33,919 bases of DNA from assembly GCA_015489175.1 (NCBI GenBank), contig WGAI01000049.1, positions 1 to 33,919 of the forward strand. Reading direction: 5' to 3'. The notes beneath the pieces were generated by a model. The model was not told the DNA's origin and searched no databases. It worked only from the letters and a program-made list of their open reading frames with translations. Shown piece by piece: positions 1-22,909 of the stretch. Numbering within the stretch: the stretch's first letter is position 1; the number at the start of each line of letters is the position of its first letter. The stretch is from Caldifarciminota bacterium (GTDB lineage Bacteria; Hydrothermota; Hydrothermia; B15-G9). Position numbers and translations under genes: made by a program.

Positions 1-660
1 ATTCTGACAAGAGACTGAAATAGGCCAATAATGATAGTCATTATCTCCAAATGGATTTCCTATTAAATTAGCAGGACAACATGCTTGATAAAAATTACCA
101 TTTGGAATACATGCACTATAACCTAACCATAAATAAAATTGAGTAAAGTAATCATAGATACAATAATTTGGAAAATTAGGTTTATAGCAACTTGAATATG
201 GCTTACATTTTTCTTCTGAGTCATCCCAATAATAACCTTTAGGGCAACAATGGGGTTTTACTGGATTGCCATATTTATTAAAATGAGAGCAATACATTGG
301 ATAAGTTATACCTTGTGGGTCAACAGATGTTGGACAGCAATCATCATTTGTCAAACATTGTTGGCCGTATTGATTGCAAGTTGGTTTGCATTTTAAAACA
401 AGATTAGGTTTAGCTTGAGTTTCATCTGTTGTACAATTGTTGAAATGGCTATTAAAAGGGAAGAACATTCCCATTACACAGATTGAACCAGGGATAATTT
501 CACTTGAAACAACACTACAATTAAAACTTCCATTAACTTCAACAGGAAAAGTGAAATTACTCTCATTTTGATTTAAAGCATAACATTCAAAACTACCTTT
601 AACTAAATAAGGATAATCATCGTTGCCTATCTGGTGATTTGTCGATAAAATATCCCGCAC
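1..660 (-). CDS. Cysteine-rich secreted-type protein, internal fragment (partial)
   Basis: I do not recognise the family. The minus strand is open without a stop from about 672 down to base 1, about 220 codons, and runs off the window edge. The product is rich in Cys, Asn, Tyr, Pro and Gly, with many CC and CxxxC spacings (for example CLTNDDCCPTS and PHCCPKGYYWDD), as in extracellular disulfide-stabilised domains. There is no signal peptide at the upstream end. The only nearby start is a GTG at 660-658 with no ribosome site, so this is probably the middle of a longer protein cut at its N-terminal side. Codons are strongly A/T-ending (AAT, TAT, TTA, CCA), unlike every neighbouring gene. Surface proteins of this style are common in DPANN archaea; that attribution is inference. 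It could be horizontally acquired or belong to another genome joined by misassembly near 600-625. Confidence 0.6.
   Translation of the reverse strand, partial: MRDILSTNHQIGNDDYPYLVKGSFECYALNQNESNFTFPVEVNGSFNCSVVSSEIIPGSICVMGMFFPFNSHFNNCTTDETQAKPNLVLKCKPTCNQYGQQCLTNDDCCPTSVDPQGITYPMYCSHFNKYGNPVKPHCCPKGYYWDDSEEKCKPYSSCYKPNFPNYCIYDYFTQFYLWLGYSACIPNGNFYQACCPANLIGNPFGDNDYHYWPISVSCQN
623..651 (+). promoter_or_regulatory. Candidate sigma70-type promoter of asnS
   Basis: TTGCCT at 623-628 and TAAAAT at 646-651 are separated by 17 bases. The -10 box ends 10 bases before the asnS ATG and there is no Shine-Dalgarno sequence in between, so the transcript would have almost no leader. The promoter also suggests that the native chromosome begins at or before 623. 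Confidence 0.45.
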
Positions 661-661
661 T

Positions 662-1954
662 ATGAAATGGATTTACATCGAAGATGCCGGTAAGCATGTT
701 GGTGAAGAGGTCGAGATAAGAGGATGGCTTTTCAACAAAAGGTCATCGGGCAAGATTCACTTCCTGATCGTTCGCGATGGGACCGGGTTCATGCAGGCTG
801 TGGTTGTCAAAAGTGAGGTTTCGGATGAGGTCTTTGATCTCTACGACGAGCTGACGCAGGAGTCATCGATAATCGTTCAGGGTGTTGTCAGGGCGGACAA
901 ACGCGCTCCCGGCGGGTATGAGCTCACGGTCCGAAATATCCAGCTTGTTCACCGCGCCATAGACTATCCGATCACGAAGAAAGAGCATGGCATCGGGTTT
1001 CTGCTTCCGAGACGCCATCTCTGGCTCCGTTCGCGCAAACAGTGGGCGTTGATGCGGCTGAGGAACGAGGTTGAGCTGGCAATTGAGGATTTCTTTCAGA
1101 ATGAGAAGTTTGTCCGCGTAGATGCGCCGATTTTGACGCCATCTGCCTGCGAGGGGACCACAACGCTTTTTAAAACGGATTACTTCGGTGAGCCTGCATA
1201 CCTGTCGCAGTCAGGCCAGCTTTACATGGAAGCGGCTGCTATGGCTCTGGGCAAAGTGTATTGTTTCGGTCCGGCGTTCAGGGCTGAGAAATCGAAGACG
1301 CGCCGTCACCTGATGGAGTTCTGGCAAGCTGAGCCCGAGGTCGCATGGGCGACGCTCGACGACATCATGGACCTCGCCGAGAACCTGATAGCTTACATCG
1401 TCGAACGGGTGCTTGATACCAGGCAGGAGGAACTCAAGCTCTTAGAAAGGGATGTTTCAAAACTTGAAGCTGTCCAAAAGCCTTTTTACCGCATAACTTA
1501 CACGGAAGCGGTTGAGATAGTCAACAGGGCTGGCCTCAAGATGGAGTGGGGTGAGGATTTCGGCGGCGATGAGGAGACGGTTTTGGCTCAGCAGTTCGAT
1601 AAACCTATACTCGTCCACCGTTATCCGGCGAAGGTCAAGCCGTTTTACATGAAGCGAGATCCCGAAAACCCAGACCTTGCGCTTTGCGTCGATGTGCTTG
1701 CGCCTGAAGGATATGGCGAGATAGTCGGCGGCGGACAGCGTGAGGACGATTACGAGACACTCTACAACCGCATGGTCGAGGAAAACATGCCTATCGAGGA
1801 TTACGAATGGTATCTCGATCTCAGGAAATACGGGTCAGTGCCTCACTCCGGCTTTGGAATAGGACTTGAACGCACCCTGAGATGGATTGCTGGGATACAT
1901 CACATCAGGGAAGCGATACCGTTCCCGAGACTGCTTGAAAAGATTTATCCATAG
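662..1954 (+). CDS. asnS: Asparaginyl-tRNA synthetase
   Basis: Cytosolic class IIb enzyme that charges tRNA-Asn with asparagine. Residues 1 to about 98 form the N-terminal OB-fold that binds the anticodon (RGWLFNKRSSGKIHFLIVRD). The class II catalytic core follows, with the AsnRS-type segment PSACEGTTTLF near 158-168, motif 2 (FRAEKSKTRRHLMEFWQAEPE) near 207-227, and motif 3 (GFGIGLERTLRWIAG) near the C-terminus, ending in HIREAIPFPR. The SACEG.TTLF segment and the HLMEFW form favour AsnRS over AspRS. Length (430 aa) is normal. The ATG has no ribosome site; the promoter box lies 10 bases upstream, so translation may start on a leaderless message. The gene stands alone and is followed by a strong hairpin terminator. 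Identity is secure; Asn rather than Asp specificity is very likely. Confidence 0.95.
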   Translation: MKWIYIEDAGKHVGEEVEIRGWLFNKRSSGKIHFLIVRDGTGFMQAVVVKSEVSDEVFDLYDELTQESSIIVQGVVRADKRAPGGYELTVRNIQLVHRAIDYPITKKEHGIGFLLPRRHLWLRSRKQWALMRLRNEVELAIEDFFQNEKFVRVDAPILTPSACEGTTTLFKTDYFGEPAYLSQSGQLYMEAAAMALGKVYCFGPAFRAEKSKTRRHLMEFWQAEPEVAWATLDDIMDLAENLIAYIVERVLDTRQEELKLLERDVSKLEAVQKPFYRITYTEAVEIVNRAGLKMEWGEDFGGDEETVLAQQFDKPILVHRYPAKVKPFYMKRDPENPDLALCVDVLAPEGYGEIVGGGQREDDYETLYNRMVEENMPIEDYEWYLDLRKYGSVPHSGFGIGLERTLRWIAGIHHIREAIPFPRLLEKIYP

Positions 1955-3483: not shown

Positions 3484-5145
3484 ATGGATAAAAAGGCGTT
3501 TGGCCTGGTCCTTCACTCGCACCTCCCGTGGGTGCTATCTCATGGAGTGTGGCCGCACGGCGCAGAATGGCTGTTCGAGGCCGCTTCCGAGACATACATC
3601 CCCCTGATAAGAGTCTTTAAAAGGCTTATGTCCGAAGGGATTAAGCCCAATGTCACAGTGGGATTGACGCCTGTCCTCGTCGAACAGCTGAGCGATGACG
3701 AGTTCAAGGCCGAATTTCCGAATTATCTGGTATCCAAGGCCGAATCCGCGCGCGCTGACCTGCTCGAATTCGAGAAAGCGGGTCTGAACAACCGTGCCAA
3801 GGTCGCAAGGATGTGGATCGAGTTCTACGAGGGCGCGATGGCCTATTTCGATGAGATAAATCGGGACATCGTCAGCGAATTCAAGCAACTTCAGGACGAA
3901 GGTGCTATCGAGATCATCACATCTGCGGCAACTCACGGCTATCTGCCCTTGCTCGGTCTGGACGAAGCGGTTAGGGCTCAGGTCGAGGTCGGCGTCAGGA
4001 ACTACATTCGGGTCTTCGGCAAAAAACCGATTGGTATATGGCCACCTGAGCTCGCTTACAGGCCGGCTTACCGCTGGAAAGCTCCTGTCGGAGATTATCC
4101 TGAGATCGACAGGAGGGGCGTTGAAGAGTTTTATCATGATTCCGGCATCCGATACTTCATCGTCGATAAACATCTGTTGATGGGCGGCGAGGTTATCGGC
4201 ACATACCTTTCCCTGTTTGAAGGGCTTAAGGCCCTGTGGGAAAGGTCGCGCGAGGCCGCTCAGTTCCGTTCGAGAAAACTGAGCCCTCACAAACCTTATT
4301 ACGCCGCATCGGGGAATTCGTCCAAGCCGGTGGCATTCTTCACCCGTGACCCTGAAACCGCCTCAAGGGTCTGGTCGCGTGATCTAGGCTATCCCGGCGA
4401 TCCGGCTTATCTTGAGTTTCACAAGCGTCATTTCCCCGGTGGCCACAAATACTGGAGGGTGACGGATTCAAAACTCGACCTTGCGGACAAGGGGGAATAC
4501 ATACCGGAGATGGTCGAGGCGCCGCTCGAAGCGCAATCCTCCCATTTCGTGCAGCTTGTGAACGAGATCGCCGTTCGCGAAGATGGCATCGTTGTGGCAC
4601 CGTTCGACACGGAGCTTTTCGGCCACTGGTGGTTTGAAGGCCCGGAATGGCTCTATCGTGTGATCAAGAAGCTTTATTCCGATAAATCCGATGTCAGGCC
4701 TGTTAAGCTCGGCGAATACCTTGACGCATTCCCGCCCGACGAGGTCGTCAATCTGCCCGAAGGCTCATGGGGCGAAGGCGGGTTCCACTGGGTGTGGCTG
4801 AACGACTGGACCAGATGGACATGGGAAAAGATTTACGAGATGGAACACAGGGTCGTCGCGCTTTTGAAGTCCGACAGGCAGATTAACCCCTTGCTGATGC
4901 AGCAGATACTCAAGCAGCTCCTGCTTCTTGAGTCTTCCGACTGGCAATTCCTCATAACAACATGGAGCGCAAGGGATTACGCTGAAAACCGGTTCTCCGA
5001 ACATTACGAGGTCCTGAAAAAATTGCTTGATATGGCTGAGACTGGGCTTACAGAGGAGGATATGGCGTTCGTCAAAACCGTTGCATCGAAGGACAGGCTG
5101 TTCAACTCCATTGTGTCACCTGAATTCTGGAAACTCAAAGGTTAA
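3484..5145 (+). CDS. GH57 1,4-alpha-glucan branching enzyme
   Basis: Makes alpha-1,6 branches in glycogen-like storage polysaccharide. The N-terminal GH57 (beta/alpha)7 barrel starts at once (LVLHSHLPWVLSHGVWPHG). The expected nucleophile is E189 in GIWPPELAYRP and the acid/base is D375 in FDTELFGHWWFEG; both are present. After about residue 420 comes the helical C-terminal domain (DUF1957 type) with WLNDWTRWTWEKIYEMEHR. Length (553 aa) fits GH57 branching enzymes of Thermus and Thermococcus type rather than GH13 GlgB. AGGAG lies 8 bases before the ATG. No other glycogen gene is nearby; cas2 precedes it on the same strand but with its own promoter. Family assignment is firm; branching rather than amylase activity is inferred from the motif context. 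Confidence 0.9.
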   Translation: MDKKAFGLVLHSHLPWVLSHGVWPHGAEWLFEAASETYIPLIRVFKRLMSEGIKPNVTVGLTPVLVEQLSDDEFKAEFPNYLVSKAESARADLLEFEKAGLNNRAKVARMWIEFYEGAMAYFDEINRDIVSEFKQLQDEGAIEIITSAATHGYLPLLGLDEAVRAQVEVGVRNYIRVFGKKPIGIWPPELAYRPAYRWKAPVGDYPEIDRRGVEEFYHDSGIRYFIVDKHLLMGGEVIGTYLSLFEGLKALWERSREAAQFRSRKLSPHKPYYAASGNSSKPVAFFTRDPETASRVWSRDLGYPGDPAYLEFHKRHFPGGHKYWRVTDSKLDLADKGEYIPEMVEAPLEAQSSHFVQLVNEIAVREDGIVVAPFDTELFGHWWFEGPEWLYRVIKKLYSDKSDVRPVKLGEYLDAFPPDEVVNLPEGSWGEGGFHWVWLNDWTRWTWEKIYEMEHRVVALLKSDRQINPLLMQQILKQLLLLESSDWQFLITTWSARDYAENRFSEHYEVLKKLLDMAETGLTEEDMAFVKTVASKDRLFNSIVSPEFWKLKG

Positions 5146-22433: not shown

Positions 22434-22909
22434 GCCATTTTAGATAAGGCAATAACTGAAATAATGCAACAAAATGTCACTGTCTGCCGTTTCGTTCGTT
22501 TAAAACCTTCCATACAGGGGCAGCGAAAGCAGCGAGGTGTCACAAAAGGTATGCGGATTGGAAAGACCACAAATTTAAGAAAATTAAAATGGTTACCCCC
22601 AATCCCCAATGCAAAAAGAATTTACTTCCAGACCCCATGAGGAAGAAGATCTAACTTATTAGAGGAGGGCTGAGGCTGTTCAAAAAACGGCCTTACCCCG
22701 AATTTGACGGCCATCAGCTGGTGTAAAGGTAAAGAATAGTTACTTTTTCGCCCCACTGCGTCTTTTGAAGGTAATGGTCAGGGATAGCTTTGAAATGTGG
22801 ATCGAGTGGCGAGTGTTCTTTCCTTCTTATCCCCATTGTTTCTCCCTCCTCTTTTTTATTTTACACAATTTTTCGCTATACCCCTCACATCTATGCGAAG
22901 CGAGAAGAC
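22434..22909. other. Divergent intergenic region, no gene recognised
   Basis: About 475 bases between pspC (leftward) and the small open frame at 22910. It is AT-rich with no recognisable protein, RNA or repeat-spacer array. Plus-strand frames here are short and lack ribosome sites. Confidence 0.5.

Follow-up and report, generated by a model that had tools for sequence, protein, structure and literature searches.

An AT-rich gene fragment upstream of asnS in a WOR-3 genome, probable edge of a strain-specific insertion

The first 618 bp of a contig from a WOR-3 (Caldifarciminota) genome are probably the right-hand edge of a strain-specific AT-rich insertion, whose other edge would be found on a second contig (C52:1-2024). 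The window that we analysed is the whole of the first contig (C49, 33.9 kb), and the genome (G000) comprises 77 contigs and 2.06 Mb, with 95.6% completeness and 0.75% contamination. The insertion would lie between a FemAB/GNAT-type acetyltransferase gene and asnS; its left edge would carry an IS256/Mutator relic and a gene, P0003, the second half of which is AT-rich in like manner. The gene fragment at the start of the window, P0001, and P0003 would converge across the unassembled gap. The congener used for comparison, at 92% DNA identity, is 'candidate division WOR-3 bacterium isolate T10_metabat1_scaf2bin.031' (G001), a name that NCBI taxonomy now assigns to Caldifarciminota.

A sequence-only reading had drawn attention to a stop-free minus-strand frame, rich in Cys, Asn and Tyr and in AT-ending codons, and both the frame and its character stand. 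This frame is open throughout 1-618 with 10-31 stops in each of the other five, and its 206 codons compare with a median of 63 and a maximum of 151 codons for the longest open frame, in any frame, of 2000 dinucleotide shuffles. The GC content of the segment is 0.31 (GC1/2/3 = 0.38/0.40/0.16), against 0.53 and a GC3 of 0.62 for the sampled host genes. The translation contains, in 207 residues, 21 Asn, 19 Cys, 19 Tyr, 19 Pro and no Arg, with five N-x-S/T sites. The proposed loss of its N-terminal end is also borne out, since no ATG, GTG or TTG occurs near the 5' end of the AT-rich part. We considered GTG 660 as a functional start and rejected it, as it would fall in the asnS promoter and yield no signal peptide; the frame reaches this codon by chance only, the asnS upstream DNA at 619-661 happening to be open. 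P0001 is best read as what is left of an extracellular, disulfide-rich protein whose gene was cut at the edge, either by the insertion itself or, as may be, by later recombination. As it has neither start nor signal peptide it is probably not expressed as such, and it is most likely a dead remnant that has lost its function.

The abrupt end of the fragment against asnS had been placed near 660. The abruptness is confirmed but the position is not: the congener is collinear with the window from base 619 onward and shares the upstream DNA at 619-661, so that the true breakpoint lies at about 618/619. A TAAAAT motif or a close variant recurs near the same distance from the ATG in most of the listed relatives (congeners and members of the order and class), and it is therefore probably the -10 element of a leaderless asnS promoter, predicted at 623-651, with the asnS ATG 10 bp past it. 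The AT-rich DNA ends 4 bp upstream of the apparent -35 element and leaves this apparent promoter whole. The asnS protein is 99% identical to that of the congener and 95% identical to that of a further genome, G002; with its apparent promoter kept, the gene is probably unaffected.

When we compared the region upstream of asnS with that of the congener, we observed that the 5 kb preceding asnS in the latter correspond to C52:2024-7000 (minus strand) in G000, with 94 bp of congener sequence unmatched in between. C52:1-2024 is absent from that site in the congener. The orthologous site thus holds 94 bp in one genome, and C52:1-2024, a gap and window positions 1-618 in the other. No contig bridges C52:1 and window position 1, and P0001 and P0003 face opposite directions. 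The transposase relic on C52 belongs to a dispersed family, of which the copy on contig C16 matches PF00872 (5e-14); a 5'-end relic of the same IS256/Mutator-family element is also seen in the window, at 22726-22880. The features of both edges are listed in Table 1.

Table 1. Features at the two proposed edges and in the congener (positions without a contig name are those of the window)
Feature	Position	Strand	Basis or remark
P0001, Cys/Asn/Tyr-rich extracellular-type protein fragment (candidate), 206 codons	1..618	-	Open frame, codon usage; 5'-truncated, 3'-open at contig end
Right-hand junction, proposed AT-rich insertion/native sequence	618..619	.	G001 homology begins at 619
Native asnS upstream region	619..661	+	Apparent -35 TTGCCT 623-628, 17-bp spacer, apparent -10 TAAAAT 646-651
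asnS, archaeal-type asparaginyl-tRNA synthetase, 430 aa, native	662..1954	+	Homologues in G001, G002
IS256/Mutator transposase relic, gene head	C52:1869-1987		90-95% identity to C34, C16 and C15 copies
P0003, secreted T9SS-like protein gene, 563-aa open-ended frame	C52:1690 to 2	-	Runs off contig end towards asnS
G001 homologue of P0003	L047:697-2742 (G001:C96)		Blockwise codon mosaic

The end of C52 that faces the window in the congener layout is AT-rich and has similar codon habits, and the two ends are apparently the edges of one strain-specific insertion that was broken in assembly; we regard this as the most likely arrangement. The composition was surveyed in 130 contig ends and 1879 frames of at least 150 codons, with about a quarter of the genome, including four small masked contigs, lying outside this sample. 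Among the contig ends (mean GC 0.487, sd 0.054) the three lowest values are those of the starts of C62 (0.300), C52 (0.312) and C49 (0.317), and one of the other two extremes would face the window by luck with a probability of about 2 in 129. Among the frames, P0003 ranks first and P0001 third for the lowest GC3 over 100 codons. Per codon, P0001 fits the AT part of P0003 (-0.783) and the AT-rich gene of C62 (-0.780) far better than the host (-1.298); as it fits an unrelated gene equally, codon likelihood reflects AT-richness more than a common donor. The codon usage of 1-618 is foreign in style, and its tie to P0003 comes from position. What links P0001 to P0003 is composition and position, P0001 having been found in no relative. 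The AT-rich end of C62 was tried as a bridging piece and rejected because it holds a full AAA_15 (OLD-like) ATPase gene (L118:33-1928, G000:C62; GC 0.31), possibly a defence gene.

The locus resembles the composition-deviant genomic islets in which surface-protein genes lie beside IS relics. Like them it is strain-specific and AT-rich, with deviant codon usage, is missing at the orthologous site in the congener, and has a mobility-gene relic (IS256/Mutator) at one edge, here the left one only, and a broken gene at the other. Unlike them, it shows no integrase, no tRNA target and no flanking direct repeat: the two edges share no 10-mer, neither a direct repeat nor an integrase was seen there, and no tRNA gene occurs in the window or in C52:1-20000. 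Its middle, moreover, is unassembled. Flanking direct repeats and a tRNA target are not obligatory for small insertions.

P0003 begins with a hydrophobic, signal-like stretch and matches the T9SS type A sorting domain (TIGR04183) weakly (E=8e-4, residues 104-164). It differs from proteins of that class in that its domain lies near the N-terminus and scores 19.4 against a curated cut-off of 23 bits, and P0001 has no such domain; P0003 was therefore not retained as type IX cargo by the criterion of a C-terminal match above the cut-off. The genome itself contains 79 matches to this domain, 73 of them above the cut-off, and none of the open-access papers examined connects WOR-3 with type IX secretion.

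The homologue of P0003 in the congener is 73% identical over all 563 residues, the AT part included (JALVZN010000096.1). It lies on an unbroken, independent contig, flanked by yebC and a transglutaminase-like gene; G000 has no such gene at that place, and the AT-richness of P0003 is thus probably no artefact. In these genes GC3 falls from 0.6-0.8 to 0.0-0.2, in the congener within about 25 codons, and the switch sits at about codon 250 in P0003 but at about codon 420 in the congener, where a GC-rich patch (about 567-612) follows it. Where both genes are AT-rich, every 25-codon block except one shows 88-93% DNA identity, whereas in the blocks where only P0003 is AT-rich just 18-36% of the identical residues are encoded by the same codon. 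The simplest explanation of the mosaic, suggested by the different places of the switches, is that a GC-rich allele recombined with an AT-rich one. Long words common to both alleles are few at the switches, and the reading frame is kept across them, which makes an origin in assembly unlikely. The homologues of P0003 that were seen all belong to one WOR-3 order, that of G000, and a third, related AT-rich 3' end occurs in another genus of this order.

Several other observations were made at these genes. In the congener, a 311-bp direct repeat (97.7%; L047:558-868 and 3506-3816) covers the upstream region and the first 57 codons of the P0003 homologue, with a nucleotidyltransferase-domain (MNT-like) gene between the two copies, and a 14-bp tandem duplication near L047:2727-2755 causes a frameshift in the first copy. 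In addition, two contig ends, L037:1-20 (G000:C52) and L057:9595-9614 (G009:C25), coincide in the homologous gene (TTTTTAGRAATATTAATC) and adjoin a GC switch in the congener, perhaps marking a hotspot of recombination or of assembly breaks.

We searched widely for relatives of P0001. None was found in genomes of the phylum, 60 at first and then 147, the best match being short, with E 0.016, and containing a stop. There was no match in Pfam, NCBIfam, PHROGs, PDB, phages, plasmids or, by pattern, IMG/VR viral contigs, nor was any obtained when patterns were scanned against a single genome for each GTDB r220 species, an approach that reveals close relatives only. The Cys spacing is like that of knottin-like domains (Pfam PF07740, Toxin_12) over 17 residues, but the score of 13.1 against a curated cut-off of 21 bits (E=0.15) is at chance level and this assignment was rejected. 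AlphaFold models built without alignment, of P0001 (pLDDT 39.5) and of the AT-rich region of the congener homologue of P0003 (43.5), were unusable.

Between the two explanations offered by the sequence-only reading, a transferred surface-protein gene or a misassembly, the former now appears the better. An assembly chimera, in which the assembler fused the asnS contig to 1-618 from another AT-rich organism in the sample, is a doubtful though not negligible alternative. It would account for a fragment that sits at a contig end, stops mid-gene exactly where native sequence begins and has no relative in the 147 genomes of the phylum. The adjacency of both halves in a relative, which had been named as evidence against a chimera, is not seen for the fragment, as the congener lacks 1-618. 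What weakens the chimera is that the facing C52 end matches 1-618 in AT-richness, resembles it in codon usage and continues a gene present in a second genome too, while the other contig ends of the bin are not commonly AT-rich; moreover, a random join would hardly end just 4 bp short of the apparent promoter and leave it whole. The AT-rich piece is thus most likely a broken edge of foreign surface-protein DNA rather than a random assembly error.

As to the origin of this DNA, its Cys-, Asn- and Tyr-rich, sequon-bearing extracellular character and AT-rich codons would suit a DPANN archaeon, and the insertion would then record a transfer from archaeon to bacterium. We consider this very unlikely: no homologue of the fragment was found, the scan across GTDB species reaching close relatives only; the partner gene P0003 is bacterial in style with relatives only in WOR-3; and AT-rich bacteria, plasmids or viruses would fit equally well. 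Nothing found points specifically to an archaeon as donor. That the segment is native WOR-3 DNA, an AT-rich and fast-evolving surface gene lost by relatives, is hardly credible; three genomes of the order, one of them with about 42% GC, do have AT-rich homologues of the partner gene, but the differing codon switches argue for recombination with a separate AT-rich allele, and none of the 147 genomes of the phylum yielded a homologue of P0001. In the explanation that we prefer, an acquired insertion, the donor of the DNA would have had about 31-32% GC. Recombination of this DNA with native alleles would then account for the differing positions of the codon switch in the C52 gene and the congener homologue. 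A broader and rather unlikely proposal is that a mobile AT-rich secreted-protein locus moves among WOR-3 bacteria and a partner lineage, AT-rich and as yet unsampled, that may be a symbiotic archaeon; the locus would recombine within genes with native alleles, leaving alternating GC-rich and AT-rich codon blocks in one protein's gene at sites that differ by species, and would carry an orphan Cys-rich family.

If the insertion reading is true, the fragment should not be thrown out as contamination. Gene exchange is little studied in this uncultured phylum, and the fragment would then mark one border of an acquired locus for secreted proteins; P0001 would be the first-seen member of an orphan family of Cys-rich extracellular proteins. 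The codon mosaic of P0003 would in that case let one read off the tracts recombined between GC-rich and AT-rich alleles and help to trace the donor.
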